A DNA stretch of 64,000 bases from positions 1 through 64,000 of the forward strand of contig JAHIWS010000020.1 in assembly GCA_018815925.1 (NCBI GenBank), in the 5' to 3' direction. The translations under genes were made by a program, and so were the position numbers. Numbering within the stretch: position 1 is the stretch's first letter; every line of letters starts with the position of its first letter. The DNA comes from Nanobdellota archaeon (GTDB taxonomy: Archaea > Nanobdellota > Nanobdellia > Pacearchaeales > GW2011-AR1). The notes under the pieces were generated by a model. It was not told the DNA's origin. It did no database searches and saw only the letters and a list, made by a program, of their open reading frames with translations. Shown one piece after another: positions 8,556-30,965 of this stretch.

Positions 8556-8728
8556 AAAAGATTATACTTCCACAAGTTTATAAATTTTAATGTAATCGAA
8601 AAAAATTAAAATTTAAGAAAACATTAAAATAAATTCCTAGGCCAGGCTTTAACACCCTCCTTCCAATTTTTTTATTAACTTCCCCTAGTTCCAAAGAACA
8701 ATTAATCCACTAGGTTTTTTACCTTTCT

Positions 8729-14502: not shown

Positions 14503-14550
14503 TTCTTGTTTAATCTCCTGTAATTTTTAATTAAATTAGCAGGGAGGAAA

Positions 14551-14730
14551 ATGCGAACCCACACAATGCAAGTAAGGTTAACAAAGACCCAAGGAGAAAG
14601 ATTAAAAATCTTGGCTGAAGGTGCAGGATTTAATACTGTTTCCAGCTACGTTAGGTTTATGTTATTTAATCCAACCTTTGAAATGAAACTTAACAGGATC
14701 TTAGAAATCTTAAAAGAATTAAAAAAATGA
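14551..14730 (+). CDS. ribbon-helix-helix-like small regulator (not in ORF track)
   Basis: A 59-aa ORF below the track threshold. A Shine-Dalgarno (AGGGAGGA) precedes the ATG. The layout is MQVRLTKTQGERLKILAEGAG… followed by SYVRFMLF, a CopG/Arc-like ribbon then two helices. The C-terminal KLNRILEILKELKK closely parallels KLNQILEEIKKKR of the 60-aa protein at 31154, so the element carries two paralogues near its two ends. Confidence 0.75.
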   Translation: MRTHTMQVRLTKTQGERLKILAEGAGFNTVSSYVRFMLFNPTFEMKLNRILEILKELKK

Positions 14731-14802
14731 GTTTAAAATCTTTGTACAAGGATAGGAACCAACAACAATAATTCTTTTAACCATTGTTTTACAAAGCATA
14801 TT

Positions 14803-15246
14803 ATGATCCCTGTGTTATACACTCTCTTTTTGGAAAGACTTTGTGAAATAAAATCAAAAGAAGAGATAATCCCCTATGGGCTTGTTTTTTCCAAAATATG
14901 CAGAAGTTTCTCAATCACCAAAGATGAATGCAGATTTATCCTTATGCTGTACAGAGATCTTGGTTTCATTGACATACACAAAACAGGAATAAAAATATTG
15001 AAAAGAGAAATACCTAAACAAAGAGAAATAAAATTACTTGCACACAGGATTCCAAAGATTTGTATAAGTCACTGTGAAAAATGCGGCAAAACTTTCGATG
15101 CAAAAATTATAATTCAAGAAACTTGTAAGGATTGTTCTGAAAAGATGAGCAAGGAAATCAAAGAAAAAGTCAAAAAAGAAATTGAAAACGGAAATACAAA
15201 TCCTGAATGGGTTTTAACATTGCAGGAATTGATGAAAAGGGATTAA
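14803..15246 (+). CDS. winged-helix plus zinc-ribbon protein
   Basis: A 147-aa protein. The N-terminal half looks like a winged helix (YGLVFSKICRSFSITKDECRFILMLYRDLGFIDIH). The C-terminal part has CEKCGK…CKDC, a four-Cys zinc ribbon, ending in a charged helix. A transcription or replication-initiation role for the element is plausible but not shown. Confidence 0.65.
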   Translation: MIPVLYTLFLERLCEIKSKEEIIPYGLVFSKICRSFSITKDECRFILMLYRDLGFIDIHKTGIKILKREIPKQREIKLLAHRIPKICISHCEKCGKTFDAKIIIQETCKDCSEKMSKEIKEKVKKEIENGNTNPEWVLTLQELMKRD

Positions 15247-15286
15247 GGTTAATCCTTTAAAATTTCCAGTACACTATCTTAGAACT

Positions 15287-15460
15287 TTATTTTTTATTGC
15301 TATCTTCTTCAATTTTATCTGTTAAAACAACGAATGCTTTTTTTCCTATGTGTTTTTCTGGAACAATTATGTGTCCTGCTTTCCCTCCAAATTTTTTAAC
15401 TTCTTTTTCAACAACTTCATCTCCTTCGTCCAAAACTATTGTAATTACTTTTCTTTTCAT
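15287..15460 (-). CDS. DUF2080-like small protein (not in ORF track)
   Basis: A 57-aa ORF on the strand opposite the tracked shadow. It reads MKRKVITIVLDEGD… then GKAGHIIVPEKHIGKKAFVVL, the swapped-hairpin AbrB-like pattern seen in DUF2080 transposase-associated proteins (…VP..yiGKkv.V). A TATA-like TTTATATA lies 28 bp upstream of the ATG, implying a leaderless transcript, with a palindrome between TATA and the start. Probably a DNA-binding antitoxin-like regulator. Confidence 0.65.
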   Translation of the reverse strand: MKRKVITIVLDEGDEVVEKEVKKFGGKAGHIIVPEKHIGKKAFVVLTDKIEEDSNKK

Positions 15461-15492
15461 AATATACTTAGTATATACTATTATATAAATCT
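15461..15492. promoter_or_regulatory. promoter with operator-like repeat, copied at 17019
   Basis: The repeat AGTATATACTAAGTATAT occurs here (as its reverse complement) between TATA (TTATATAAAT) and the ATG of the DUF2080 gene. The same repeat occurs in the opposite orientation at about 17021-17038; both copies are followed rightwards by a similar A/T-rich TATA and CTTT(T)GGG. This fits a binding site for one of the element's small AbrB/RHH regulators. Confidence 0.5.
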
Positions 15493-15555
15493 TTGGGTAT
15501 ATTAAATTTTAAACAAAGCCAAACATTTTTAAACAAGTTTATACATATTATAAAT

Positions 15556-15798
15556 ATGGATAAACAAGGTAATACAATATTTACTAATGATATTTTTATT
15601 GCAAAAGTTACTGGAACCGAATCAAATAAAACAGTTTCAATTCCGAATCATCTTTGTGAATTTTGTGGAATTAAAAAAGGGTATCTTGTAAAAGTTCAGA
15701 TTTTAGACGCAAAACCCTCTAAAGAAAAAGAAGAAATAATAATTAACAAGAAAAATGCAAAACCAAAACGAACAAGAAAAAAAGCATCTCGAATTTAA
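15556..15798 (+). CDS. AbrB/SpoVT-like small DNA-binding protein
   Basis: An 80-aa protein starting MDKQGNTIF; the tracked 21-codon extension is unlikely because TATA-like sequence (ATTATAAAT) abuts this ATG. The SNKTVSIPNHLCEFCGIKKGYLVKVQI segment follows the AbrB swapped-hairpin pattern (…k.vtIP..lre.lgikkGd.V.v.) and a Lys/Arg tail follows. Divergent from DUF2080; together they look like a regulatory pair. Confidence 0.65.
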   Translation: MDKQGNTIFTNDIFIAKVTGTESNKTVSIPNHLCEFCGIKKGYLVKVQILDAKPSKEKEEIIINKKNAKPKRTRKKASRI

Positions 15799-15985
15799 AA
15801 GAAAATGCTGTACTCTTATAACAATAAGAAGAAAAGCAGATGAATTGTGTAATCAAGGAAAAATAAGTAAATATCAAAAAAATAAAATTAAAGAAAAATT
15901 AAAATATGAGTGGCGAAAAGCATACAATCGCCACCCCTATATCTCACAATCAGTTAAGCAGGGTTTCAATCTGCTGTATACTTAA
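15755..15985 (+). CDS. small basic hypothetical protein
   Basis: A 76-aa, Lys/Arg-rich helical ORF. It overlaps the end of the AbrB-like gene by 44 nt and the end of the convergent 290-aa gene by 36 nt, which weakens the case, although viral elements often overlap genes. No domain recognised. Confidence 0.35.
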   Translation: MQNQNEQEKKHLEFKRKCCTLITIRRKADELCNQGKISKYQKNKIKEKLKYEWRKAYNRHPYISQSVKQGFNLLYT

Positions 15986-16822
15986 TGATTGTATTTGTGG
16001 TGTTAGAGTATTCACTTTATTTAGTGCCTGAACTCGGCTTGCAGGGTATGTTGAATTTTGGGTTACATTATAAATCCAACTATTTCCCAAAATATACACC
16101 TGTCCTTTTCCACCACTCCAAGGCAATCCGTGAGCAACATAGTTTGCACCAAATCTTAATGGTGCTAACAAAATTGTCGCTTTGTTCTTCCGCCTATATC
16201 GTGGAGTAACACCGAATACAAAACGAGATATATCTGCAGTGTCCAAAGCTCCCATTAATTCCATCCAACTGAATTCGTGTATTTGATAATTTCTGTAAAT
16301 TATTACACACTTCTTAATGCCGTGCTTTTTCATAATAGCAACTTTTTCTGCATTAAATTCTGTGTAAACTTCAACAGCAGGCACAATTTCTTTCTTTGGA
16401 TATTTTTCCTTCGCTTCTAAAATTTGCTCTTCAAACTCCCTCGCTGTCTGCCTGAATGATTTTTCATAAGAGCAGAAAAAAGGAGTTTCTTGAATGTTTT
16501 GGACATTCTCAATAAAGTTCATTTGCGAAGTTGTGAACTCCGTTCCCTCTTTAACCTGTATATGCAAAAGGAATTTTGACCTTGGATATTTTTTACAAAT
16601 CTCTCTATATCCATCCCTTTGTTCTCTTGCACCTATGATATTGAACTTATCAGTGTTTCTCGTCGTGAACTTAAAACATTTTACAGCATAAGGCATATTT
16701 GAAATCTGTCTATTACACTGAACTGATAGGTCAATTTCCTGGCTATTTGGGATTACAAACTGCTGTGCCGGAAGTGAAACTAAATTCACTTTCCTTTCAC
16801 TCTCCTGTTTTTGTTCTACCAT
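15950..16822 (-). CDS. 290-aa protein of unknown function, alternating alpha/beta
   Basis: Starts MVEQKQESER, with AAGGAGG upstream of the ATG and a TTTAAATA box about 45 bp upstream. Alternating strand/helix segments (SKFLLHIQV, EIVPAVEVY, KKCVIIYRNY, RFVFGVTPRY) suggest a TIM-barrel-like fold, and the C-terminal 60 residues are polar and Gln/Asn-rich. I do not recognise a family; a superficial resemblance to tRNA-guanine transglycosylase barrels is too weak to name it. G+C looks slightly higher than in flanking genes. Confidence 0.6.
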   Translation of the reverse strand: MVEQKQESERKVNLVSLPAQQFVIPNSQEIDLSVQCNRQISNMPYAVKCFKFTTRNTDKFNIIGAREQRDGYREICKKYPRSKFLLHIQVKEGTEFTTSQMNFIENVQNIQETPFFCSYEKSFRQTAREFEEQILEAKEKYPKKEIVPAVEVYTEFNAEKVAIMKKHGIKKCVIIYRNYQIHEFSWMELMGALDTADISRFVFGVTPRYRRKNKATILLAPLRFGANYVAHGLPWSGGKGQVYILGNSWIYNVTQNSTYPASRVQALNKVNTLTPQIQSLSIQQIETLLN

Positions 16823-17201
16823 TTTTTATACCGCCTCCTTCGGCTCACTGCTTCATACAAATATTTAAATAGTAAATATGCTTCTCTTTTTTATTAAAGA
16901 GGGTCATTTGCATTTTGTATTTTCCTACTTGTAGTCCACAGCATATTTAATTGTCCCGACTTACGTCAAGAGTATGCTGTTAAATCAAATTCTTACGAAT
17001 TGACTATATTTTCCTAAAAATAGTATATACTAAGTATATTTAAATCTTTTGGGATTGATGGATATTAGAATTTTACTTGGGGGTTAGAAGGAATATAGGA
17101 AAATATAGTCCAACGAACCCCAAGATAACAAAATTAAGAAATAATGTTTTAAAAATATTTGCTTAATTTTTTTTGGTTTTCAAAAAGTCCCATAACTAAG
17201 A
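16823..17201. other. structured intergenic region of the element
   Basis: 379 bp without a gene. It holds an imperfect stem from ACAGCATA/TATGCTGT (about 16937-16980), a perfect 15-bp inverted repeat (17002-17016 with 17096-17110) and, between its arms, the AGTATATACTAAGTATAT motif shared with 15461. The density of dyads suggests a regulatory or replication site. Confidence 0.55.
17002..17110. repeat. 15-bp perfect inverted repeat enclosing an operator-like motif
   Basis: GACTATATTTTCCTA at 17002-17016 and its exact complement TAGGAAAATATAGTC at 17096-17110, 79 bp apart. The interior contains the palindromic motif also found at 15461 and a TATA-like box. It could be a small inverted-repeat element, an origin, or a termination structure for the two leftward units. 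Confidence 0.7.
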
Positions 17202-18080
17202 TTATCTTATCACTATCCTCTCACCATTTGGATCTTTAATAGAAGGATTTTCTTTCACCATCATCTTAGCAAAATCAAAATTATTCTCGTTAGCAAAAGT
17301 GAACCTTGTGGAATACCTCACTTGAAGATCTCTTTCTCGAACAACCCTCCGATAATCTCTTATTATCTCTTTTGGAGGCAGAATGCTGAATCTCCTCTTA
17401 TCGCAAATTATCAAGGCAATTTTTGGGCTAATCGGAAAATGCATTTCAAATCCAAAACATTCCAGGCCAAGGTTCCCATAAGGAAATAAATCAATTTCAT
17501 TATATTCTGCAACAGGATTATCAGAAGTCCAAAAGGGAAATTTTGTTTTATTGATTAAAAGAATCCATTTTAGATCTTTGATTCTTGATTTAAATTCATC
17601 AACTTCTTTAATAATATTGTTATGCATTTTCCTCAATGAATCTTTTTTCATAGATCCTAAAACTTCCTCTTTCAAACTTTCAGATAACTGTTCGCCATAC
17701 TTCTCCAAAAATTGTTTTGAGGTATCTTTTAATGTATTTCTTGTTTCTCTTGTACGGATCATTTGGTAAGCAACAAATTCTGCAATAATATCTTTTTCAT
17801 CCATAGTTAATTTATCCAAATCTTTAATTGAAATTAATTTTTGAATTATGGGATCAAATTTTGTTTCTATTTGTTGTAAAGTTTTTTCTATATCTTGATC
17901 TTCTGAAAGGGTATTATAAAATTCCTTCTCAAAAGCTATGTTTTTTATATTGGTTTGAAAAATTTCCTCTTTTTCTTTATCAAAAACCCAAGTATAATAT
18001 TCTTTGTCATTAAAATGAGAAAAATTTTTTAAATAAACTCTTGGAACAAAATGTTGAACCTTAACTTTTGTTTGCACCAT
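17202..18080 (-). CDS. DUF4238 family protein (last gene of the defence-like operon)
   Basis: A 292-aa protein starting MVQTKVKVQHFVPRVYLKNF, the N-terminal signature of DUF4238, with a central SDNPV motif (FWTSDNPVAEY) typical of the family. The tracked upstream 20 codons overlap the previous gene and are unlikely; from this ATG the overlap is 20 nt. DUF4238 proteins occur in defence gene neighbourhoods, but the activity is not established. Last cistron of a seven-gene leftward unit. Confidence 0.75.
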   Translation of the reverse strand: MVQTKVKVQHFVPRVYLKNFSHFNDKEYYTWVFDKEKEEIFQTNIKNIAFEKEFYNTLSEDQDIEKTLQQIETKFDPIIQKLISIKDLDKLTMDEKDIIAEFVAYQMIRTRETRNTLKDTSKQFLEKYGEQLSESLKEEVLGSMKKDSLRKMHNNIIKEVDEFKSRIKDLKWILLINKTKFPFWTSDNPVAEYNEIDLFPYGNLGLECFGFEMHFPISPKIALIICDKRRFSILPPKEIIRDYRRVVRERDLQVRYSTRFTFANENNFDFAKMMVKENPSIKDPNGERIVIR

Positions 18081-18657
18081 TTTTTTTCTTTCTTTGATTT
18101 TCCAATGCAGGAAGGGTATATTTAACATAATTATATTCATCGATGCATTTTGCCAAAGTTCTTTCTTCTTTGTGAGAAAAATCCTTAAATTCCTGCCGCA
18201 TCTTTTTTAAAAAATTAAAATAATCCTCCGAATCCCCCGTCTTAAAACCCCAAGCTTTTCTGATGTATGCGTCCCACATAATGAAAACTTCTGGAATTGT
18301 TAAATGCATTAATTTTGAAGCGCCCGTATATTGTATGCCCTTGATTTTAGATAAAGTATCAAAAATATGTTTTATTTCTTTTTTATAAAAATCAAGATCA
18401 ATTTCCCTTATTGATTTTCCATCGAATTTTTTAAAGTAAGGTTTTAAATTTTTAACAACCTGTTTAAACTCCTTCAAATCAAAATCTTTCATAGCATATC
18501 TGAATGTAGCAAAATTCCATGTTGAAAGGATGAATAAAAATGCTTCGGTTTCAAAACCTTTTTCAATCATATTAAGGAACATTGGATAATAACTCCCTCT
18601 GTTTTCCAATTCATCAAATCTTTTCAAATTTTCTTCAAAGTCGTTTTTGTTTATCAT
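18061..18657 (-). CDS. defence-operon protein with possible helix-hairpin-helix glycosylase-like motif
   Basis: A 198-aa mostly helical protein. The segment IKGIQYTGASKLMHLTIPEVFIMWDAYIRKAWG resembles the conserved helices of HhH DNA-glycosylase-like proteins (G..laSK.lhf..P..fpi.D..v..al). The catalytic Lys/Asp pair is not certain, so I name only the resemblance. It overlaps the nuclease upstream by 4 nt. Confidence 0.5.
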   Translation of the reverse strand: MINKNDFEENLKRFDELENRGSYYPMFLNMIEKGFETEAFLFILSTWNFATFRYAMKDFDLKEFKQVVKNLKPYFKKFDGKSIREIDLDFYKKEIKHIFDTLSKIKGIQYTGASKLMHLTIPEVFIMWDAYIRKAWGFKTGDSEDYFNFLKKMRQEFKDFSHKEERTLAKCIDEYNYVKYTLPALENQRKKKNGANKS

Positions 18658-19301
18658 TTTCCCTCACACCATTCGCAGCACTTCTTAGGACACTCTCCTT
18701 CAAGAAGTTTTAATGCATTATTCCAAGCTTTCTCCGCCATCTTAACATCAACTTTCATCTTAACAAGATCTGTATCAAATATAACTTCACCTGTTTCAGT
18801 AACTTCTCTTGGAACATAAAACAACAAGAAAAAATAATCTTCGGTTTCATACCCATTTTTTCTTAATAAAAAGTTGTAGATATTTTGTTGGAGTCGGTAA
18901 TGCTCTGCAGTATCTTCTTTCAATGCATATCCTCTTGTTTTATAATCAAGCACAATTAATTTCTTTCCTTTCTTCAAAATATTATCAACGGCTCCATGAA
19001 GTTCGTTTCCTTTCTTGTCCTTCCAACTGACTCCTTTAAAATTGCTCTGCCAAACTTTCATTTTTTCTTTATCATCAAATAGATCCATATTTTTGCATTC
19101 TTTGTTTTCACAAAGTTCTGGCGGCAATTGCCTTTTATCCCGAAATTTATCAAAATGCTTTTTCAGAATACGATCCATTCCCGAAGGCAAACTTGGAAAA
19201 ATTCCTGCAGGTCTTTTCCATACCCTGTGTTGTGCTAACCAAAAACACCGGGGGCATTCTTTCATAAGGTTTAGTGCAGAAGGAGAAAGTTTGTAAACCA
19301 T
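18654..19301 (-). CDS. Cas4/RecB-like PD-(D/E)xK nuclease with probable Fe-S cluster
   Basis: A 215-aa protein of the PDDEXK_1 type. It has LSPSALNLMKECPRCFWL at the N-terminus, catalytic GAVDNIL and VLDYKTRG (D and DxK), QQNIYNF (QxxxY motif), and a C-terminal CPKKCCEWC cluster that with the N-terminal Cys pair could bind 4Fe-4S as in Cas4/AddB. No cas gene is nearby, so it probably acts as a DNA end-processing nuclease within the operon. One-nucleotide gap from the helicase upstream. Confidence 0.8.
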   Translation of the reverse strand: MVYKLSPSALNLMKECPRCFWLAQHRVWKRPAGIFPSLPSGMDRILKKHFDKFRDKRQLPPELCENKECKNMDLFDDKEKMKVWQSNFKGVSWKDKKGNELHGAVDNILKKGKKLIVLDYKTRGYALKEDTAEHYRLQQNIYNFLLRKNGYETEDYFFLLFYVPREVTETGEVIFDTDLVKMKVDVKMAEKAWNNALKLLEGECPKKCCEWCEGK

Positions 19302-19302
19302 T

Positions 19303-21696
19303 TTAATTAAATAAATCCTCGAATTTTTTCCAATCTTTATTCAACTTGCCAGGATAATAATCATAATCTTTTCCTTCATGATAGTGCCAAACATTATTTT
19401 CTTTTACAGCAATTCCCCCAACATAATTTTTTCCAAGTTCTTTTATTTTTAAATTAAGATATTTTGCCTTATCTCTGGTATGACCTCTTCCTTCTGGCAA
19501 GGCAGTATCTCCTTTTTTTGTATCAAATATTCCCACCTTGTTATCTTTAAATAAAATTATCCAGTCTGGATAAAAAAGTCTCCATGCTTCTTCTTTAGTA
19601 TTCCAATACTTAATAGCATAATATTCTTTCCCATAATCTCCATTCTTAAACCACCACAAAATTTTATCTTTTTTTGCATCTATGTACTTCATAAATTCTT
19701 CCTCATTTATCTTTCCTTCTTCATCTTTAAGATAAAATTTATCTAACACGCAAAGATTTGAGGGAATCTCCAAATAATCTTCTGAGAACCAATATTCATT
19801 TAATATAGTAAAATCAATTGCCTCTCTTTCTTCTTGCAACCGCCTTCTATTTTTGATTATTTCTTTTAATATTGGCTTATATTCTTTTATTGATTGTGTT
19901 ATCGCAGGACGAATTATACTCGAAGCCCCCTTGTCCAAATCATTGATAAAAATTTTATACATGTAATTAGAACTATCCGTTAAAACTGACTTAAACCAAA
20001 CTCTAATTGCAGATTTTAATGTGGGAAAAGATCTCGCAATATTAGATATCTTTGCTTCATCTTCTGTTTGTTCTGCCAACAACCTATAGACATAATAATT
20101 AAAAGTTTTTTCAATATCATTATTAGACATCTCTAATTCCAAATCATCTCCAGTTTTATTGAATTCCATACTTAAATTATCGAATTCTATAAATTCAGCA
20201 TTCATAATTATCTTTCTTTTGATGATTGGTTTAAGATCAATTCCTTTTGCTAATAATTTTTTGGATCCTTTTCCGTACAAAAGATCATCTGAAGTTATTT
20301 TAAAATATTTATTCATTGAATTTAAGAAACTTCTTTGAAATTTAAAAGAATCTGCCAAATCTCCGTATTCTAACCTTGAAACAAAATCAGACTTCAACTT
20401 AATATTTTTTATCCCATTTTTTCTCCTAGCAGGAAGTATTGAGGGTTTATTTGGAGAAATTTCTTTCCACTTTTCACTAATTCTATTTCTATCATAATTC
20501 GTGAAAAGAAATCCTGTTTTGATTATCTGAGAATTTGAATAATCTTCTTTTCTTTGAGGTTCAGGCATTCTTAAAATTCTCCCTACCGTTTGAAGATCAA
20601 AGGTTTCAGATTGAATCTCTCTAAATCTAACCAAGATGTGAGCCCGCGGACAATCCCACCCAGTTCCAGCAGTTTGTTTAAATAAAAGAAAATCATGAGT
20701 ATCATCTAATTCTTCAAGAAATTCAGGTTTGGGGTGCTTATCAAACCACCGAGCAATTTTGATTTCTTCTATCCCTTTTTTATGTAATATTTCTGTTGCT
20801 ATTTGTTCCTTTGTTTTTTCCCCCAGCCCAATAAGATTAGAATCATCATTAGGCAATTGTATTAAAACTAAAGGATTAATATTTTTATTGAGTTTTTTAT
20901 ACTCTTTAACAATTTCTTCTCTTTTTTCTATAGCTAAGTCTATCATAGCTTCTTCTAAAGAACCTTCTTTGATTTCTTTTATATATTTTTTTATATTTTC
21001 TTCTGTTTGGACGATTACTTTTTCTTTTATTAATCCCTGTTCAACTACCTTTTCATGAGGCACTTTTACAAAACTATCATATTCTGCAGCCTCCGCAATT
21101 AAATTCTTATCGGGGGTTGCAGAAACATGCAAAACAACACTTGGATTAATCATTTCAATAATCGGTTTTGCCCCTCTTTCTGTAACATGTGTATGGGCCT
21201 CGTCTATAATTAAAATTATTTCTCTATTATCTTTGTGAGTATTTTCAACAAAATCCTCAAAATAAAAACCTGTTTCTTTTCTTTGAGTTTCATCTTCCGG
21301 CCTCCTCAAAACCCTAACTGTTGCTTCTGAACGAGTAACAATCTTTTGCCAATTTAAAAATAAAATTTCATTTTTTTGCAATTTTCCTTTATTAATATCT
21401 GAAAGAGTAAGGAGATTGTTTTCAAGGGTATTTTCAAAATAAGCTCTAAACTTATCTTTACTCTGCATAGCAAGATCATCATTAAACGTAACCCAAATAA
21501 AAGATTTATCTACATCCCATTGTGGGAGTTTATTTAGTCCCCTAATAAAATCTGAAACCATAAATGTTTTACCTGAACCTGTTGGAGCTTGAAAGACTAA
21601 AGGCAATTTCCTTTTTTCATTTTTCCATAAATTTAGAAACTTTTCAGTAAGTTTATCTCTTGCTTCTTTTTGAAATTCTAATGGTGTTATCATCAA
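19303..21696 (-). CDS. type III restriction-like Res subunit (SF2 helicase plus nuclease)
   Basis: A 797-aa protein. It has Walker A (QAPTGSGKT, about 36-44), DEAH box (IIDEAHTH), SATPD (motif III), and motif VI-like QTVGRILRMP. The C-terminal domain contains PDWIIL…GIFDTKKGD, the PD-(D/E)xK catalytic core seen in type III Res. Somewhat shorter than typical Res (about 900-1000 aa). It begins one nucleotide after the DUF365 gene. Expected role: ATP-driven DNA translocation and cleavage of unmodified DNA. Confidence 0.87.
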   Translation of the reverse strand: MMITPLEFQKEARDKLTEKFLNLWKNEKRKLPLVFQAPTGSGKTFMVSDFIRGLNKLPQWDVDKSFIWVTFNDDLAMQSKDKFRAYFENTLENNLLTLSDINKGKLQKNEILFLNWQKIVTRSEATVRVLRRPEDETQRKETGFYFEDFVENTHKDNREIILIIDEAHTHVTERGAKPIIEMINPSVVLHVSATPDKNLIAEAAEYDSFVKVPHEKVVEQGLIKEKVIVQTEENIKKYIKEIKEGSLEEAMIDLAIEKREEIVKEYKKLNKNINPLVLIQLPNDDSNLIGLGEKTKEQIATEILHKKGIEEIKIARWFDKHPKPEFLEELDDTHDFLLFKQTAGTGWDCPRAHILVRFREIQSETFDLQTVGRILRMPEPQRKEDYSNSQIIKTGFLFTNYDRNRISEKWKEISPNKPSILPARRKNGIKNIKLKSDFVSRLEYGDLADSFKFQRSFLNSMNKYFKITSDDLLYGKGSKKLLAKGIDLKPIIKRKIIMNAEFIEFDNLSMEFNKTGDDLELEMSNNDIEKTFNYYVYRLLAEQTEDEAKISNIARSFPTLKSAIRVWFKSVLTDSSNYMYKIFINDLDKGASSIIRPAITQSIKEYKPILKEIIKNRRRLQEEREAIDFTILNEYWFSEDYLEIPSNLCVLDKFYLKDEEGKINEEEFMKYIDAKKDKILWWFKNGDYGKEYYAIKYWNTKEEAWRLFYPDWIILFKDNKVGIFDTKKGDTALPEGRGHTRDKAKYLNLKIKELGKNYVGGIAVKENNVWHYHEGKDYDYYPGKLNKDWKKFEDLFN

Positions 21697-21697
21697 A

Positions 21698-22114
21698 CTA
21701 ATTATCCTCCTTTCTTAAAAATCTACCCGTCATTCCAACAGGCATCTTAATTTTTCTAGGTTGTGAATATTTTCTTATTGATTTGAGATGTAAAACTGCC
21801 ATTTTCTTGTCTTCTCTTCCCTTGCTGTATTCTTTTAATTCAAAATCCTTTAAGAACATATCTTTAAAATATTTTTTTGGAATCTCGTTTAATGAAAGAT
21901 ATTCCACCTTCCCAATTATTGCTTCACCAAAAAGTGTTTTTTTATTCCGAGAAACATAAATAAAAAATTTAAGACCCCTCTTTAAATTACTTTTAGACTT
22001 TTTATTAGGATCATGAGATAAGTATTTTACAAAAATAAATTTCTTCTTCTCAAAGAGATTATTTGCCTGGGCTTCGATTAAGGGGAATACAACCCCAATA
22101 ATTTCATTTTTCAT
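21698..22114 (-). CDS. DUF365/PUA-like domain protein
   Basis: A 138-aa protein whose IIGVVFPLIEAQANNLFEKKKFIFVKYL start, KRGLKFFIYVSRNKKTLFGEAII core and late KYSQPRKIKMPVGMTGRFL match the archaeal DUF365 pattern, a member of the PUA/ASCH/EVE-like fold. Such folds can bind modified nucleobases. Placed between a nuclease and Res, it may sense the methylation state or modified invader DNA (inference). Overlaps the upstream gene by 11 nt. Confidence 0.65.
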   Translation of the reverse strand: MKNEIIGVVFPLIEAQANNLFEKKKFIFVKYLSHDPNKKSKSNLKRGLKFFIYVSRNKKTLFGEAIIGKVEYLSLNEIPKKYFKDMFLKDFELKEYSKGREDKKMAVLHLKSIRKYSQPRKIKMPVGMTGRFLRKEDN

Positions 22115-22799
22115 TTTTTAATTCCTTTAAAGTCTCTATTAATTTACAGGGGTCCTTGCCTATTAAAGATATTCGACATCTCCAAAACTCCCTAAGACCA
22201 AATTTCCAAGTTGCAATCTTCTTATTTTTTATTTTATCTTTAATATCCAAAATTAAAGAAGGCCTATCAATCCAAGAAACAAAATATTCTTCATATTCAT
22301 TTAAATTCATTAAATCATACAATTCTGTAGGAGTTTTATTTTGCCAATTTATTTTTTGACCATTCAACCAATTGTCCCTTTCATTAGTTTTTTTATTAAA
22401 ATAAATCTGTATATGGAAATCTCCCTTTAAATCTTCTATCAATTCTGTTCGTTTAATTATTTTTATGTCCCCTTTTTCAATACAAGATTTTAAATCTCCC
22501 CATGAATCTGGGATTAAAGAAGTTTTAACTTCTATGTGCCATTCATTAACATCCTTCTTTAAAATAAAATCTATATCCATATCTCCAGTTTCGTTTATAT
22601 AATTCGTTTCAGAAAAAATTATTCCATTATCTGAAAACCATCTCTTGAGAGTAATTTCTCCAAGATATCCCCTTATTCTTGAATCAAGTTGTACAATTTT
22701 ACTTCTATTTCTCAAATTATCTATAAACTTTTCTTTCAATGCCTTATCTATTGCTGACAAGACATCTATTTTTGTTATGCTCAACTTTAAAGGATTCAT
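22104..22799 (-). CDS. PD-(D/E)xK restriction-endonuclease-like protein
   Basis: A 231-aa protein. RGYLGEITLKRWF supplies a Glu, GDMDIDFIL the catalytic Asp, and WHIEVKTS the ExK, the standard order of a PD-(D/E)xK nuclease. The C-terminal half has FVSWIDRPSL and a Cys-Arg-rich region of unknown role. It follows Mod after one nucleotide. It is separate from the nuclease domain already present in Res, so the operon encodes at least two, and with the Cas4-like protein three, predicted nucleases. Confidence 0.75.
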   Translation of the reverse strand: MNPLKLSITKIDVLSAIDKALKEKFIDNLRNRSKIVQLDSRIRGYLGEITLKRWFSDNGIIFSETNYINETGDMDIDFILKKDVNEWHIEVKTSLIPDSWGDLKSCIEKGDIKIIKRTELIEDLKGDFHIQIYFNKKTNERDNWLNGQKINWQNKTPTELYDLMNLNEYEEYFVSWIDRPSLILDIKDKIKNKKIATWKFGLREFWRCRISLIGKDPCKLIETLKELKNEK

Positions 22800-22800
22800 T

Positions 22801-24480
22801 TTAATTAATCAAATTGTAAATATTTTTATAGATTTCCAGAATTGGAACAGGGATAGTTTTAATAGTTACATTCTTCAAATACTCAAAGTCTTCAATAAAT
22901 TCATCTTGTCCCCAGCTAAAAACATAAACAGTTGTATCCTTCTTTAATTTTTTAACTGCTTCTATAAATTTATTAAATTGGTCTAACTCTTCTCTAAAAT
23001 AAACTGCCGTATACTTCTTTTTAAGATTATCTTCAAATAATTGATAATATTTTGTCTTTTTTACTAACTCAAGGGTATTTTCCGCAATAGCCAATAATTC
23101 TCCTGCATTATGAGCAAGTTCAACTTTATCTTCATCATTTACATTAAGGATATTATTCTTTCCAATAAAAAGTGTTTCGTAAAATTTAAGAGAATTTCCA
23201 TATTCTTTTATGGATTTTTTTATTCTTGGATAACAAACTTTTTTACAAATTTCACTTTCGTTATTTGTGCATAAAATAAATTGCCTTTTATTTTTCTTAT
23301 TGGATCTTATTATCGCCTCTCCAGAAGTTCCAGACCCAGCAAAAAAATCCAAGAATATTCCTTTCTCTCCCAAAGAAAGGTCGCAAATAAAATCAATCAG
23401 GCCAAGAGGTTTTGGATAATTAAATATATCTTGATTCAACTTTTTTTTCAATTCTTGACTTCCAGCAGAATTGCTAAAATCTATTAATGCTCGATAAGGT
23501 ATAATTCGTTCTCTTTTTTTATTTTCATTATCCACATATTGATATTGTTTGATATATACTTTCCAATTGTCTTTCACTTTTTTAAATACGATAAAATCAT
23601 TTTCAACGCCCCATTCAAATTTCTTTTTACTCCACCTCCAAGTATTGGGTTTTCCTTTTTTCCCTCCTGCCCAAATTTTGGTTTTATCAGGAGTAATAAT
23701 AGGATAGTCTCCTGTTTCATTATAATTCCCTTTATAATCCAAATCTCTCAAATAATATTTCCCTCTAAAATCAACAAACTTGTCAGAATATCTATATTTT
23801 GAATCATTATCAACATCAAGTTTTTCTTTATTAAAAGATAAGACAGAATAATCTTTTGCATAACATAACATATAATCAAACTCTATTGCAATTTTTCCAC
23901 TATCATGACCCGCACCTGCTTTACTTTTCCGAACAAAATTTGCCACAAAATTTTGCTCCCCAAAGATATTATCACAAAGTAACTTTAATTGATACAGTTC
24001 ATTGTCATCAATAGAAATGAAAATTACTCCATTTTTTTTAAGTAAACTCTTAGATAATTCTAATCTCTTTTCCATAAATGAGAGCCAATATCCATGTCTA
24101 AAAGGATGATCTTTTGGAACTTCAGTTCCATCAGGAAACTTGGAAATTATTCTCTTATCTTTATATCTAAATCCATCAGAACCCGTATTATAAGGAGGAT
24201 CAATGTAAATTACATCGATTTTTTCCTTATGAGTATAATTTAAACAAGTTAAGGCATGATAATTATCCCCTTGAATCAAAATATGTTGGGGTTTTCCATC
24301 ATCAGTCTTTATGGCCAAATTGGGAACTTCTTTAAGAACAGGCAATTTATTTTCAACATCATCTTCAAATGCTTCGGGAACATCCATCCAAACCAGACCA
24401 TACCTTTGTTTTTTTACAGATTTTTTAAGCCGTTCAATTTCTTTTTGTAATTTAAATATCTCTTGATCTTTTATCGTCAT
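22801..24480 (-). CDS. type III restriction-like Mod subunit (adenine-specific DNA methyltransferase)
   Basis: A 559-aa beta-class methyltransferase. DPPYNTGSDGF (motif IV, about 95-105) precedes a variable target-recognition region (about 210-340, Lys/Trp/Tyr rich) and FLDFFAGSGTSGEAII (motif I SAM binding, about 375-390). The N-terminus starts with a heptad coiled coil. Architecture and length match type III Mod (N6-adenine). First gene of the unit; the winged-helix gene 108 bp upstream may control it. Confidence 0.9.
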   Translation of the reverse strand: MTIKDQEIFKLQKEIERLKKSVKKQRYGLVWMDVPEAFEDDVENKLPVLKEVPNLAIKTDDGKPQHILIQGDNYHALTCLNYTHKEKIDVIYIDPPYNTGSDGFRYKDKRIISKFPDGTEVPKDHPFRHGYWLSFMEKRLELSKSLLKKNGVIFISIDDNELYQLKLLCDNIFGEQNFVANFVRKSKAGAGHDSGKIAIEFDYMLCYAKDYSVLSFNKEKLDVDNDSKYRYSDKFVDFRGKYYLRDLDYKGNYNETGDYPIITPDKTKIWAGGKKGKPNTWRWSKKKFEWGVENDFIVFKKVKDNWKVYIKQYQYVDNENKKRERIIPYRALIDFSNSAGSQELKKKLNQDIFNYPKPLGLIDFICDLSLGEKGIFLDFFAGSGTSGEAIIRSNKKNKRQFILCTNNESEICKKVCYPRIKKSIKEYGNSLKFYETLFIGKNNILNVNDEDKVELAHNAGELLAIAENTLELVKKTKYYQLFEDNLKKKYTAVYFREELDQFNKFIEAVKKLKKDTTVYVFSWGQDEFIEDFEYLKNVTIKTIPVPILEIYKNIYNLIN

Positions 24481-24588
24481 TTTTGTTTATATCTCCCTAA
24501 GGTGTTTCATACTTTGTTTTAATTCCAGGCCTTAAATTTTATTTTTTTCTGCATGCTTAATTAAGAATAAACGATTTTTTAAAAGCAT

Positions 24589-24861
24589 CTATTCTCCAGA
24601 GACTTTGAATACCTCTCTTAAAATGTTCCTCCCTTTTTTAGTAATTTTATAAAATTTAAATGAACGGTCTTCGGGATTAATACACTTTATTAAATCTTTC
24701 TGAGAAAGTTCTTTTATCGTCGTAGAATTATGAGATTTATATTGTTTAAGTGCCCTCATAATCTCTGGTTGGCTTAATTGAGTGTGATTAGAAAGTAGAT
24801 TAAGCGTTTCTTTCCTCCTTTTTGCTCTCGCAACAAAACCAATTAGTTTTAAATCTACCAT
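24589..24861 (-). CDS. winged-helix transcription regulator
   Basis: A 90-aa protein with an ArsR/MarR-like wHTH: RRKETLNLLSNHTQLSQPEIMRALKQYKSHNSTTIKELSQKDLIKCINP…FKFYKITKKGRNIL. Located immediately upstream of the Mod-Res operon on the same strand and divergent from the 321-aa membrane protein, so it probably represses one or both. Confidence 0.7.
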   Translation of the reverse strand: MVDLKLIGFVARAKRRKETLNLLSNHTQLSQPEIMRALKQYKSHNSTTIKELSQKDLIKCINPEDRSFKFYKITKKGRNILREVFKVSGE

Positions 24862-24945
24862 ATATAAAATGAGTTACAGATATTTTTATTTAGAGGTTAC
24901 AAATTGGGTTACGGAAATAACAACGTTTAAAAAAGCCCAAATCCT
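24862..24945. promoter_or_regulatory. divergent promoter with repeated GTTAC motifs
   Basis: Three GTTAC motifs at 24873, 24896 and 24908 (the last two 12 bp apart, the first 23 bp away) in the gap between the wHTH gene and the membrane protein gene. Half-sites of this spacing would fit an autoregulatory operator; this is positional inference. Confidence 0.35.
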
Positions 24946-25911
24946 ATGAAAAGCATGCCAGAAAAACAAAAATCTTGGATCAGGAGACACTGGATTATTT
25001 CAGGAGTTATAGGGTTCTTTGCATTATTTTTAATCATCGGGGTTTTTCAAGGAGTAAATAATGGAATTACAGGAAATGTAGTTAATGAAGGGCAATCTGA
25101 TTTACCTACTTCATATTCTGAAGCCAAGCAAAAAGCAACAGATGTTTCTTATGAAGAGCTCATGCGGCATGCTGAAACTTATCAAGGCCAATGGGTCTGT
25201 TTTAAAGGAGAAGTTATTCAAGTAATCACAGATCTCCCTAAACTTGAATTGAGAGTGTCTACAAGGGCAGATGAATGGGTTGGTTACATAGAAGACATTG
25301 TTTATGTTTATGCAACTGATTATTCTGGTGAAAGATTATTGGAAGGAGATATGATTCAGTTTTGCGGAAAATCAGGAGGTGCGGTTACTTATGAAGCAAT
25401 TCTTGGTAATAAAATTACAATTCCCGGAATTGAAACTGATGAGGCTTATGTGGAATTAATTGATAAGAGTGAAATAAGTCAAGAGCAAAAACCTGTTGCA
25501 ACACTTGGCCAGATTTGGGTCTCTGCTGAAAACTTTGATGCTGATTCAGATATTGATGGTATTGAATTTAGTCTGCAGCCAAAAGATAGCAAAGGTGGAC
25601 TTGTAAATGTAGAGGGCACTGCAAATATAAAACTCTGGAAGATGGAGTGCACAGAAAGAGGTGAATATGGAGAATATTGCCTTCAAGAAGATTGCACTCG
25701 AAAAGACAGTTTGCTTATTGAAACTTGGTCTCTTCCTATTAACTCAGAAGATTATGATTTCATGGGTGCTAACATTCAAGCAGAATATAAAAGTTACAAA
25801 CCTCAGGGAGATAAGTATGAACAAAAAGGCTGCATAGAAGTAACTTTTGTTGATCCAAAGGGAAATAGTTTCACAACATCTGAGAGGGATATTTATTTAG
25901 CGGGATTTTAA
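24946..25911 (+). CDS. membrane-anchored protein with OB-like and beta-sandwich regions
   Basis: A 321-aa protein. A basic N-terminus and one membrane helix (about 17-37, WIISGVIGFFALFLIIGVFQG) are followed by a domain around SYEELMRHAETYQGQWVCFKGEVIQV… that resembles small OB-fold (tRNA anti-like) secreted domains, then a second beta-rich domain (about 185-320) with several Cys. It would face outside. The only rightward gene in the element's centre; it could be a superinfection-exclusion or virion-surface protein, but nothing proves this. Confidence 0.6.
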   Translation: MKSMPEKQKSWIRRHWIISGVIGFFALFLIIGVFQGVNNGITGNVVNEGQSDLPTSYSEAKQKATDVSYEELMRHAETYQGQWVCFKGEVIQVITDLPKLELRVSTRADEWVGYIEDIVYVYATDYSGERLLEGDMIQFCGKSGGAVTYEAILGNKITIPGIETDEAYVELIDKSEISQEQKPVATLGQIWVSAENFDADSDIDGIEFSLQPKDSKGGLVNVEGTANIKLWKMECTERGEYGEYCLQEDCTRKDSLLIETWSLPINSEDYDFMGANIQAEYKSYKPQGDKYEQKGCIEVTFVDPKGNSFTTSERDIYLAGF

Positions 25912-25915
25912 AGAT

Positions 25916-26518
25916 TCACCTCTTGCGTCTTATATCAAGAAATGCAAAAGCGAATCCTCCCGTCCAAGTAAAATTAATCAAAGCCTTAACAAACTCCTGG
26001 TTTTCTTCTGGAAGCACTACCTTATCTTTGCCCTCTTCTACAATCCACTCGATTTTATCGAGCTGACTTTCTAATTCAGGAATATTTGGGATTTTGATTA
26101 AACCTTCTTTGAAAAGTTTGTTTAAATAAAAATAAATTCTGCTTTGATCGTCTGCAAAATCATTTGATTTGAATTTTTCAATTTCGAATCTGCATTTATG
26201 AACAGTTACAAAATCTCTAATTTCTTCTATTATTTCATTACTTGCTCCACCAGGATTAATTCTGAATATTCCTTTTTCCACTCCAAAAAATTCTTTAATC
26301 ACTTCTTTAATTTTCTCTTTTATATCTTGTCCGATAAAATAATCTATAATTTGATAGTTCTCTTTTTCTATTTCTACTACTTGACTAAATGACCTCCCCC
26401 TTAAATTTGGGGATTGAACAAATTTACTTCTCTTAGTTTCAGGAATATGATAACCCCACACCATAGCAGACCTTTCTGTTGATGTCTGACCAATGCTACA
26501 TGCAATTATTTTTTTCAT
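25916..26518 (-). CDS. terminase-associated protein resembling a TerL nuclease domain
   Basis: A 200-aa protein starting MKKIIACSIGQTS. Its second half (ADDQSRIYFYLNKLFKEG followed by LIKIPNIPELESQLDKI) follows the pattern of the C-terminal region of TerL nuclease domains, although the adjacent TerL already has a full nuclease. It overlaps the end of TerL by 4 nt. Possibly a duplicated or regulatory nuclease-fold subunit; active-site acids are not clear. Confidence 0.45.
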   Translation of the reverse strand: MKKIIACSIGQTSTERSAMVWGYHIPETKRSKFVQSPNLRGRSFSQVVEIEKENYQIIDYFIGQDIKEKIKEVIKEFFGVEKGIFRINPGGASNEIIEEIRDFVTVHKCRFEIEKFKSNDFADDQSRIYFYLNKLFKEGLIKIPNIPELESQLDKIEWIVEEGKDKVVLPEENQEFVKALINFTWTGGFAFAFLDIRRKR

Positions 26519-27918
26519 TGAATAGCTCTCCGTATTTCATTTAAATCAAATAGTTTATTTGCTCTTTGAAAGACAAAAAACATCCTCATCATGATTGAAT
26601 CTCCATAGTCTGTTGATCTTCCAAGATTCTCTTTAATTTCCTCTTTTGTTAAAATGCTCAATGGCTGATCTTTTCCAGGATTCGCTTGTTTGATTTGTTC
26701 AAGATCCTCAATAATTTTTTCTTTTATTCTCGCATCAATATCCCTATAAATTCCAATTCTTCCAGAGTTAACATAATTCGCAAGTTCAAACCAACATTGA
26801 GCTTTTAAATTTCTAAAATTCTGTAAAGAGGTTTCTTTTTCTTCTTTAGACTTAAAGGGACTTGCGTTATTCACAAATCCTTTGACACCTGTTAAATCTT
26901 TTACTAATCCAAAACCCACACCATCTTCGTCAACTAAGCAGTGACTTCTTTGAATTTTATTTTCTGTTAATATCTTATCTAATTCTTCATTTGAGATGTT
27001 GTCCATTATTTTAATACCTGTGATAAAAAAACCATCCCAAAAAGTTAAAACGGTTTTGTCTCTTCCCCTGCCAGCAACATCAACTGTGCAATATTTCTGA
27101 CCCTTTTCTGCTTCATTCGTGAACAAGTCCATAATTGCATCATAATTAAAAAGTCTTGTAGGGTCATCGTCATATTCCCAATTTCCATAAAGCAATCTTT
27201 CTTTGCTCACTCTGTCTAATTTTTTAAGATTCTCCAAATGATGGGGGCTGATATAATGATTATCTTTTACAAATGCAGGCAAAAACTTTCTATACTTTGG
27301 AAGCCTATTTTCTTTCCAAGGTTTGTAAAAATCATAATACAAAAAATTCTTACTTGGATTAGAACAAATCAATAATTTTGGAATTAATTTAAATTCTTCA
27401 AGTTTGAATCTCAACCTACTCATTAAAATATTCTTTGCCTTGATTGTAACTTCACTTGCTTCATCTATCACAGCTCCGCAAAATTCAGTCGAGCCCAACG
27501 AATCAAATTCAGGATCGCTTGGATATAAGAATAAATCTTTCAAATAGATCTCACTTCCATTTGAAAAGGTAATCACGCCAGCCATTGAATTGTAATTATA
27601 ATCTTGATTGGGTTTCAAATTCCAGTCCCTACAAATCTGGAAGAAGGTCAATAATGTTGAGTCTTTAAGTCGTTTTAATACTGCTCGGCCCATAAGCCAT
27701 CTACTCCCTGGATATCTCAAACAAGAGAATGTTAACCATGCACATGCAAGGTGGCTCTTACCTCCACCACTTGCACCTCCGAATAAGAGTTCTGTAGTCT
27801 CTTTGTCTTGAAGTATCTCCCATGCCTGTTCTTGCCTCTTCGTCGGAGAAAACCTGATCTCATGTGTCTGACCCCTTTGAAAACTTGCAGGGGTTGTTTC
27901 TGGCGTGCTTTTTCCCAT
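26515..27918 (-). CDS. terL: terminase large subunit (DNA packaging ATPase-nuclease)
   Basis: A 467-aa protein. The N-terminal ATPase has FGGASGGGKSH (Walker A, about 43-53), FCGAVIDEASEV (Walker B plus catalytic Glu) and LICSNPS (coupling motif). The C-terminal RNase H-like nuclease starts at CTVDVAGRGRDKTV and ends near STDYGDSIMM with the final Asp. Complete length for TerL. Packages viral DNA into preformed capsids, yet no portal or capsid gene is recognised in the element. Confidence 0.87.
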   Translation of the reverse strand: MGKSTPETTPASFQRGQTHEIRFSPTKRQEQAWEILQDKETTELLFGGASGGGKSHLACAWLTFSCLRYPGSRWLMGRAVLKRLKDSTLLTFFQICRDWNLKPNQDYNYNSMAGVITFSNGSEIYLKDLFLYPSDPEFDSLGSTEFCGAVIDEASEVTIKAKNILMSRLRFKLEEFKLIPKLLICSNPSKNFLYYDFYKPWKENRLPKYRKFLPAFVKDNHYISPHHLENLKKLDRVSKERLLYGNWEYDDDPTRLFNYDAIMDLFTNEAEKGQKYCTVDVAGRGRDKTVLTFWDGFFITGIKIMDNISNEELDKILTENKIQRSHCLVDEDGVGFGLVKDLTGVKGFVNNASPFKSKEEKETSLQNFRNLKAQCWFELANYVNSGRIGIYRDIDARIKEKIIEDLEQIKQANPGKDQPLSILTKEEIKENLGRSTDYGDSIMMRMFFVFQRANKLFDLNEIRRAIQ

Positions 27919-27925
27919 TTCCCCA

Positions 27926-28351
27926 TCAATCCTCCTTCTTCTCTGTTATTATCTTGAAAACGTAATTTTTCACGTTCAAATTATGTTCATCTGCGATCTT
28001 TGATTTTAGCCCAAATTTCTCTAAGAAATCGGTGAAATTAGAAATTGTTTGATTAAGCAAAGAGATCCCCTTTGCTTGGATATTCTGATCTTGTGATAAA
28101 ATCAATCTATGGGCGGCCCTCATGCTCACTTCAAAAGAGAGTATAAATTTTTTGGATAACTTCTCAATTTCAGGGAAGGCTATCTGTCTTATCACAATTT
28201 CAATGTCTTTGTAAATTTGTCTTTCAGTAACCTTAAATTTTTCAGAAAGGCTTTTAACAACTTGCACAGGTATTCCAAAACCTCCGGCTGCATTAAGATA
28301 ATTCAAAATATCATTTCTCCTTTCTATGTAGTTTCCTTTTTTCTCTGCCAT
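27926..28351 (-). CDS. terminase small subunit-like DNA-binding protein
   Basis: A 141-aa protein starting MAEKKGNYIERR (the tracked start is TTG, 12 nt upstream). An N-terminal helix-turn-helix (VQVVKSLSEKFKVTERQIYKDI, about 25-46) precedes helical oligomerisation-like regions. It lies 7 nt before TerL on the same strand, the normal TerS position. Direct family identification is not possible by eye. The GTTCA-rich hairpin region upstream is a candidate binding site. Confidence 0.6.
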   Translation of the reverse strand: MAEKKGNYIERRNDILNYLNAAGGFGIPVQVVKSLSEKFKVTERQIYKDIEIVIRQIAFPEIEKLSKKFILSFEVSMRAAHRLILSQDQNIQAKGISLLNQTISNFTDFLEKFGLKSKIADEHNLNVKNYVFKIITEKKED

Positions 28352-28411
28352 TTTTTGAATCAAATCGAAACAGGTTCTCTCTTAAAGGTCATTTCATATC
28401 CAAAACCAATA

Positions 28412-28511
28412 GTTCAAAGTTCATATCTATAGAAATATGAACTTTTGAACAATCTCTTGGTTTTTTGCTAAAAGTTCAAATAATCCAATTGAACTTTCTG
28501 AACTATTGAAC
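28412..28511. repeat. cluster of eight GTTCA/TGAAC motifs with a long hairpin
   Basis: GTTCA at 28412, 28419 and 28474; TGAAC at 28438, 28446, 28490, 28499 and 28507. The first four form an almost perfect stem (GTTCAAAGTTCATAT against ATATGAACTTTTGAAC). The cluster fills the gap between the PrimPol gene and the TerS-like gene. Candidate packaging (pac) site, iteron-type origin or operator. Confidence 0.75.
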
Positions 28512-28513
28512 AA

Positions 28514-30283
28514 TCATAAAACCTTATATTGTCCATGAGATACTTTCTCGATTATTCCTGACACCTCCATTGTTTTGAGTGCATTATTGAAATTAGTTTT
28601 ACCAATTCCTTTGTTAGCAGCTTTTTCTAATCCTTCATTTGTTTGAAATTCTTTTATTCCTTTTTCCTTAAACCATTTCTTTAAAACTTCAATACATTTG
28701 TCCTCTTTGTTCTTTTTGACGAATTCGCCAGAGTAAACCATTTTAATCTCATCTTCAAGAAATGTAACCAAAAGTTTCATCGGTGGCAACTCTGATTCAT
28801 TTCTATTCTTTAATTGTTTCAAAACCAAATTTCCTCCCTTCCTTTCTGCTTTAAGAATTGCATCTGCATAATTTGCCAAGTCGCTTGATCCCCTTAACTC
28901 ATCCATCTCATCTCCAGCAGATCCACCCTTACGATTATGATGTAACAAAAGAATTGAGCAATTGTACTTTTCGACTAAAGGCCTTAAAGTATCGACAAAC
29001 AATTCAGATACACTTCCTGCATCATTCTCATCAAAAGAGATGGCCCTTCTATAAGTATCAATCACTAATAACTTAGGTTTATGTTCTTCCAATATTTTCT
29101 CAATTGCTTCAATGTCTCTTTTTTTATCAATCTTAATTGAAGAAAAACAAATAAATCCAATATCATATTCTCCCGTCAACCCTAATCCCTTTTTAACCAT
29201 CGAAGTTCTTTTTTTCATTATCGCATATCCATTCTCTTTATCGAGATAAATTACTTTTCCTTTTTTGGATTTGAACTTATTTAAAAAATCATTACCTGAC
29301 GCAACAGCATAACATATCAAGATAGCCAAAAAAGTTTTCAAGACTCCTGCCTTTCCGACTAACAAACACACAGATCTATTTGCGATAATCTTTTCAATTA
29401 TCCACTCTAATCCTTCGGTTTCGTAATCTTTTAAATTGCCTTCCCAGATAATATTCAGATCAACTTTCTGTTCTTTAATTTCTCGTGGTTTTAATCCATA
29501 TTTTTCTTCTGCAATTTTTAAAACATTAACAAAATCTACTTTTCTTAAAGAACCACTTTTTGCATCAGAACAATCCATAAGACCTTCCTTTACTGCGATT
29601 GCAGCTGCAGGACCCCCACCAGAATTGCATCTAAAACAGTGCCACGTATTCTTAAAAGGATTTATCCAAAAGTTAGATTTTGTCTCAGAACCATGAATAG
29701 GATGGGAACCATAATATTCACTTCCCTGTTTTTTCAATCCAGCAGTTCCCCAAATATCTACAACAGATAAGTTATCTATATCCGAATCTTGAATTATTTT
29801 TGATACAGGAATTTCTTTCTTATCTTGGAAAGGTTTAACAAATTCAATAAGCTGATCATAATTAAGATTTGTTATTGGGATGTCATTCATGGCTTCATAA
29901 ATTTTTCCAGAAGGATGAACTGATCCTGGCCCTATAACCTGAGTTCCCTGGCTCTGAACCTCTCCAATATGTTCTCCCTCTAATTTTAAAATAATTTTTT
30001 TCTTTAACCCTTCAACAAAAAAATAATTATGCATTCCATTTCCTGTTTTAACCTTAAATGTCTGAGGTAACTTTCCATCTATCAACATCTGCAATTTTGT
30101 GCTATCAGCATCTATCACTGCAAGATTATCATATCCACATAAAACCCCATAATTCTCATCAGGAAGAAAATTCTTAATTTCACTGTAAGAATATGGTTTG
30201 TTAACCCAATCTGATTCAAAAGGCTTTTTCGTTCCCTTTTTTATCCTACAGAATTTTAAGTTTTGTAATGTTTCTGGTATCAT
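28514..30283 (-). CDS. primase-polymerase / RepA-like helicase fusion (replication protein)
   Basis: A 589-aa protein. The N-terminal PrimPol-like domain (about 1-150) has NYGVLCGYDNLAVIDADS and a later GNGMHNYFF. A CHC2-like zinc region (HCFRCNSGGG, about 215) follows. Next comes a RecA/RepA-like ATPase with LLVGKAGVLKT (Walker A, about 310-320), LLVIDTYRR (Walker B) and ILLLHHNRKGG. A winged helix closes the protein (about 520-589). It should prime and unwind element DNA. The GxxxxGKT Walker A is a variant, GKAGVLKT. Confidence 0.8.
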   Translation of the reverse strand: MIPETLQNLKFCRIKKGTKKPFESDWVNKPYSYSEIKNFLPDENYGVLCGYDNLAVIDADSTKLQMLIDGKLPQTFKVKTGNGMHNYFFVEGLKKKIILKLEGEHIGEVQSQGTQVIGPGSVHPSGKIYEAMNDIPITNLNYDQLIEFVKPFQDKKEIPVSKIIQDSDIDNLSVVDIWGTAGLKKQGSEYYGSHPIHGSETKSNFWINPFKNTWHCFRCNSGGGPAAAIAVKEGLMDCSDAKSGSLRKVDFVNVLKIAEEKYGLKPREIKEQKVDLNIIWEGNLKDYETEGLEWIIEKIIANRSVCLLVGKAGVLKTFLAILICYAVASGNDFLNKFKSKKGKVIYLDKENGYAIMKKRTSMVKKGLGLTGEYDIGFICFSSIKIDKKRDIEAIEKILEEHKPKLLVIDTYRRAISFDENDAGSVSELFVDTLRPLVEKYNCSILLLHHNRKGGSAGDEMDELRGSSDLANYADAILKAERKGGNLVLKQLKNRNESELPPMKLLVTFLEDEIKMVYSGEFVKKNKEDKCIEVLKKWFKEKGIKEFQTNEGLEKAANKGIGKTNFNNALKTMEVSGIIEKVSHGQYKVL

Positions 30284-30594: not shown

Positions 30595-30604
30595 CCCCAA
30601 AAAA

Positions 30605-30925: not shown

Positions 30926-30965
30926 TGTTTAACCTCCTGCAATTTAATTATCTCTTCGAAGAGCA

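Follow-up and report, generated by a model that had tools for sequence, protein, structure and literature searches.

What is a small protein of the DUF365 family doing between the methyltransferase and the helicase-nuclease of a restriction-modification (R-M) system? The window, the whole 64,000-nucleotide stretch of archaeal DNA analysed here, contains such a gene at 21698–22114 on the minus strand, which starts with ATG and encodes 138 residues. A sequence-only reading had assigned it to DUF365 and placed it between a nuclease and Res. The Pfam search confirmed the family: PF04033 (DUF365) matched at 41.6 bits, against a gathering cut-off of 25.9, over the whole profile (1–96 of 96) and with an E-value of 1.6e-10. 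It was the sole Pfam match at E-values up to 1, with no match to the ASCH (PF04266) or EVE (PF01878) profiles. The protein also matched the sequence of AF2351 in the PDB (2kku) with an E-value of 5e-8.

The layout of the gene was likewise found in the sequence as it had been described. DUF365 shares 11 nt with the gene upstream (22104–22799) and ends 1 nt before the start of Res, a TTG at 21696; an ATG 3 nt beyond this TTG is an alternative start. The 3′ end of the DUF365 gene (21698–21725, minus strand) holds a Shine-Dalgarno sequence for Res, AAAGGAGGAT. Because this ribosome-binding site falls within the last DUF365 codons, translational coupling between DUF365 and Res is plausible.

The operon and its mod/res junction

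The gene is part of a run of eight genes, all on the minus strand. The run opens upstream of Mod with a small winged-helix protein (24589–24861), a possible regulator with weak HTH_27/MarR matches, and continues with Mod (22801–24480), a putative nuclease of 231 residues (22104–22799), DUF365 and Res (19303–21696). Directly after Res come a Cas4-like PD-(D/E)XK protein (18654–19301) and, overlapping its gene, a 198-residue protein with weak similarity to DUF6308 (18061–18657; PF19827, E 0.0063, below the cut-off). A DUF4238 protein ends the run (17202–18140; PF14022, 1.4e-42), for which PADLOC also gave a weak DUF4238-Pers match.

Mod is a type III-like N6/N4 DNA methyltransferase of 559 residues (PF01555, 5.7e-29; PADLOC MTase_III, 8.5e-84) with DPPY at 94 and FAGSG at 380. 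Res, a type III-like helicase-nuclease of 797 residues (PF04851, ResIII, 8.3e-20), has the motifs GSGKT, DEAH, SATP and QTVGRILR and a C-terminal PD-(D/E)XK nuclease motif of its own (PD...DTK). A Mod and a Res with catalytic motifs in one operon identify the locus as a type III-like R-M system. It resembles classical type III systems in the order of the Mod motifs (DPPY, then FxGxG), in the helicase motifs and C-terminal nuclease of Res and in the adjacency of its genes, but differs from them in having two extra genes, one nuclease-like and one DUF365, between mod and res.

While the position of DUF365 and the identity of Res were borne out, the nuclease named by the sequence-only reading stays putative. 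A GEI...D...EVK pattern found by eye, which follows the GxE...D...ExK scheme, and a weak PADLOC match to SduA (E 0.0026) suggest that the 231-residue protein is a PD-(D/E)XK nuclease. It matched no family in Pfam, NCBIfam or PHROGs and no PDB sequence, zero relatives were found in 186 related genomes, plasmids, phages and viral contigs, and AlphaFold run on the single sequence gave no usable model (pLDDT 36.9). As Res has its own nuclease motif, this protein would be an extra nuclease.

The nearest relatives of Mod and Res (L023), with 55–57% identity, are encoded by touching mod and res genes and have neither the nuclease nor DUF365. The same is true of three further pairs (L024–L026), and the mod/res spacing across L023–L026 ranges from a 4-nt overlap to a 4-nt gap. 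Since the closest Mod-Res pairs are without both, the nuclease and DUF365 can be regarded as additions to a complete two-gene system. In a related system (L027) the Mod/Res junction holds an unrelated, unassigned and apparently helical protein; with this lysine-rich protein of 282 residues (8446–9294), gene insertion between Mod and Res is seen a second time.

The Cas4-like gene (PF12705, 7e-10) is unlikely to be a subunit of the system, since it turned up in 54 of 168 related genomes, most of which yielded no relative of the window Res, and it is probably a separate mobile gene. Its protein is about 60–84% identical across genera. In the same genome a second copy (G000:C18:26329-26973) has an Eco57I methyltransferase at a distance of about 1.4 kb, and the copy in G580 (L066 2814–3479) lies about 0.6 kb downstream of a GIY-YIG-ResIII gene.

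The R-M run is flanked by a tyrosine integrase (13654–14502) and a terminase large subunit (26515–27918), with a primase-like protein and a clamp loader close by. Given these surroundings, the operon probably belongs to a provirus or a related element. The likely provirus or integrated element spans 13178–31000 and continues to about 47500, and a gene for a DNA-invertase-like recombinase is located at 46703–47500.

Fold and cleft of the DUF365 protein

The sequence-only reading hinged on membership of the PUA superfamily, and the predicted structure places the protein there. An AlphaFold2 model (pLDDT 76.9, pTM 0.72) has strands and helices in E-H-E order, and Foldseek matched it to AF2351 (2kku, E 1e-8), ZmASCH (3e-8), the N-terminal domain of McrB from Staphylothermus marinus (6n0s, 1.2e-5) and YqfB (4e-5). 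Further matches were TTHA0113 and the ASCH domain of TRIP4, and the Foldseek probability was 1.0 for 2kku, ZmASCH, TTHA0113 and YqfB. The model and its matches support an ASCH/PUA-superfamily β-barrel.

AF2351 from Archaeoglobus fulgidus, the best structural match, is itself a member of the DUF365 family with 34% identity to the window protein, from which it differs in a longer loop with Trp residues and in a T/Q in place of Lys59. ZmASCH (PDB: 5guq/5y6b) has the same fold and cleft residues (Y47, T49, K53, Y90) with DUF365 counterparts; however, its identity to the window protein is 18%, and for this nearest solved relative with a known activity the assays showed weak cleavage of ssRNA rather than the reading of modified DNA. 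We know of no link between ZmASCH and restriction.

Residues were mapped by an ungapped phmmer alignment to ZmASCH, with residue roles taken from PMC5615036. Tyr47, Thr49, Lys53 and the pocket residue Tyr90 of ZmASCH, which line its nucleic-acid cleft and base pocket, correspond to Tyr53, Ser55, Lys59 and Tyr96 in the window protein. Tyr53, Ser55 and Tyr96 are invariant (27/27 DUF365 rows, with a GNAT fusion left out), so that the stacking tyrosine is conserved; Lys59 is shared by the six copies from the window's phylum, with T or Q at this position in the others. Glu64 is also invariant and Glu92 nearly so. From the ribonuclease residues of ZmASCH (Tyr47, Lys53 and Ser128), the tyrosine and the lysine are present in DUF365; Ser128 lies beyond the sequence alignment. 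An amidohydrolase of the YqfB type, with its Lys-Thr-Glu triad, is unlikely: catalytic Thr24 falls on the invariant Phe28 in an alignment based on motifs and not on structure.

Restriction and EVE genes beside DUF365

DUF365 is rare in the window's phylum, with matches in 7 of 371 genomes at an E-value of 0.001, five of them above the cut-off. With further genome samples added and weak or broken matches removed, the total is six full-length copies; the matches in G189, G265 and G376 were dropped for in-frame stops or scores below the cut-off. Each of the six has an R-M gene no more than 20 nt away, and the arrangements represent four unrelated architectures. Apart from the window, these are a Mod with TypeIII_RM_meth, DUF365 and Res, from a type III subfamily that differs from the window's (L018, G263); an MTase piece, DUF365, an Eco57I MTase and a T5orf172-ResIII (GIY-YIG) helicase (L019, G202); DUF365, an MTase piece, an Eco57I-like MTase and GIY-YIG-ResIII (L066, G580); a PLD-helicase, an Eco57I-TaqI_C MTase and DUF365 (L020, G203); and a type IIG-like MTase with DUF365 (L065, G522). 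The partners in L065 and L066 were identified from their translations, and those in L066 also by their likeness to L019. A rough estimate from the MTase counts of four genomes gives a chance of about 5e-8 for four such adjacencies, a value that is too small since defence genes cluster.

In the phylogenetic tree all six copies group in a single clade (85/79) with both type III and Eco57I partners, and a supported inner clade of four (97/88) likewise mixes two system types; long branches make the exact branching unsure. DUF365 therefore appears to have been exchanged between system types. The link to R-M recurs in independent architectures and is thereby supported much more strongly than one locus could show.

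Beyond the phylum, both plasmid copies of DUF365 adjoin R-M genes. The plasmid of Thermococcus profundus has an Eco57I MTase and, further along, AbiEii, a PLD-SNF2 helicase and DUF365; in that of Methanocaldococcus jannaschii, DUF365 is followed by an Eco57I/MmeI type IIG enzyme. An alignment of seven sequences was too diverse to be of use in scanning contigs. The scan of genome contigs for DUF365 gave 32 named loci. In Thermococcaceae the PLD-helicase system accompanies the gene, in Archaeoglobales the partners are Eco57I enzymes or NOV_C helicases, and further loci come from WOR-3 and Thermotogaceae bins; two bacterial loci are among those that extend the pattern. The Archaeoglobales loci are closely related and do not count as independent. 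About 13 of the 32 had no R-M or EVE gene in the available flank, or had one only at some distance, and some of the contigs are short. The DUF365 neighbours scanned contained HicA/HicB-like families. No DUF365 relatives were found in viral contigs and phages, which leaves a broad virus-borne family without support.

At 12 of the 32 named loci DUF365 has an EVE gene no more than 3 kb away; these 12 come from Archaeoglobales, Thermococcaceae and a Thermotogaceae bin. The two genes stand directly side by side at three of them (L033 178–1064, L039 7529–8417 and L056 4508–5384); the other neighbourhoods are L031, L034, L040, L041, L044, L045, L048, L054 and L057, and several in Archaeoglobales have small genes in between. 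DUF365 keeps the same gene company as EVE in several settings and appears to be a mobile accessory from the PUA superfamily that serves archaeal restriction systems. A direct comparison of DUF365 and EVE profiles (hhalign against the neighbouring EVE proteins) gave a probability of 8%, too weak for sequence homology.

Modification reading and its rivals

Taking together the family, the fold, the operon position, the recurrent linkage to R-M and EVE genes and the conserved cleft residues, we put the odds at slightly better than even (about 0.52) that the DUF365 protein is an ASCH/PUA accessory subunit of the type III-like R-M system, reading modification and gating cleavage, and that it belongs to a plug-in family. 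Such a subunit would read the modification state of DNA, either that of foreign hypermodified viral DNA or the methylation set by its own Mod, and would contact Res, the neighbouring nuclease or both, licensing or blocking cleavage. In this operon the plug-in would have entered at the Mod/Res junction, and the family would have moved between type III-like, Eco57I/GIY-YIG-helicase, PLD-helicase and type IIG systems. Within the superfamily there are precedents in the EVE domain of VcaM4I, which flips 5mC/5hmC (PMC7897488), and in YTH-McrB, which is cited as binding m6A DNA (in PMC7641849). Modified DNA is our first choice of ligand and RNA the second; that the ligand is DNA, that the base read is modified and that its reading governs cleavage are all presumed. 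A reader is not strictly needed, because Mod and Res already have a rule for self and non-self, and this counts against the proposal, as do the ssRNA activity of ZmASCH, the roughly 13 named loci with no R-M or EVE gene close by, the weak profile match to EVE and the relatedness of the Archaeoglobales loci.

Controller proteins limit synthesis in type II systems, and the strongest rival, which we nevertheless consider doubtful, gives DUF365 a comparable part: it would regulate the operon by binding RNA, or act there as a weak ribonuclease, and would bind mRNA, perhaps at the Mod/Res junction, and limit the synthesis of Res. ZmASCH, the best-characterised structural match, binds ssRNA and cleaves it weakly (PMC5615036), the equivalents of its Y47 and K53 are kept in the window's clade, and the DUF365 gene stands just before Res and carries the Res Shine-Dalgarno sequence; in G263, too, DUF365 directly precedes Res. 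At other loci, however, the gene follows (L020, L002, L065) or precedes (L003) methyltransferase/helicase genes and is not placed before a Res gene. The EVE neighbours point to modified bases instead, and the other superfamily members in restriction systems (EVE, SRA, YTH) are sensors of DNA modification (PMC7641849, PMC7897488).

Base processing ranks next and is unlikely in our estimate: DUF365 would be an enzyme (glycosylase, deglucosylase or amidohydrolase) that acts on a modified base in foreign DNA and turns that DNA into a restriction substrate. The same fold does serve enzymes, as YqfB hydrolyses N4-acylcytidine (PMC6972931) and BapA, whose ASCH fold has been compared with that of ZmASCH, works together with Brig3 on glucosyl-hmC DNA in phage defence (PMC13160076). 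The presence of YqfB among the Foldseek matches and the conservation of E64 and E92 also speak for an enzyme, whereas Phe28 in place of the YqfB nucleophile and the lack of an assignable equivalent of BapA Asp101 speak against it. Least probable of all is that DUF365 is a housekeeping or toxin-antitoxin-like gene riding in defence islands, with its place between nuclease and Res an accident. Many Archaeoglobales copies do lie near HicAB, VapBC/PIN or metabolic genes with no R-M gene in reach, but all six phylum copies overlap or nearly touch R-M genes in four architectures, far above chance.

A wider form of the modification-reading proposal is more tentative, and we hold it at clearly less than even odds. 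DUF365 may be an unrecognised family of PUA-superfamily modification sensors plugged into complete R-M systems of several types, either alone or paired with an EVE reader, that add a second, modification-dependent target rule and so combine a type III with a type IV response. Were this so, canonical methylate-or-cut systems might react to modified viral DNA as well. The proposal points to a movable base-reading part common to archaeal restriction systems, and it offers a function-level lead for DUF365, a domain whose structure has been solved (2kku) but not explained.

Accessories from the PUA superfamily are already known in R-M systems; no description was found of DUF365 in this role or of its place inside a type III-like operon. 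A full-text search for DUF365 in literature lying mostly outside the subscription journals returned no paper tying it to restriction, so that a prior mention elsewhere is possible, and Bell et al. (PMC7641849) was absent among the papers that contain the word. The McrB N-terminal domain of the archaeon S. marinus (6n0s) and YTH-McrB are likewise PUA-like domains serving restriction, but they are built into the McrB GTPase of a modification-dependent type IV system that has no methyltransferase.

The closest parallel is with the EVE proteins linked to restriction by Bell et al. (2020, PMC7641849), which are also small stand-alone proteins of the PUA/ASCH superfamily encoded with archaeal R-M and SNF2/PLD-helicase systems. 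DUF365 differs from them as a separate Pfam family and in its partners, which include type III-like Mod/Res and Eco57I systems. The Thermococcus locus (Eco57I MTase, an unassigned 601-residue protein, AbiEii, PLD-helicase, DUF365) has a layout like that of their R-M-linked operon (COG1743-DUF499-SNF2 nuclease-EVE), but its families differ and it does not share the identity of the four genes. At a further locus (L021 66–4769), a lower-scoring GNAT-DUF365 fusion stands beside an ASCH protein and a 992-residue GmrSD_N-HEPN_Swt1 protein, an arrangement similar to the operons in which Bell et al. (PMC7641849) found GNAT-EVE together with ASCH, but with DUF365 in the place of EVE.
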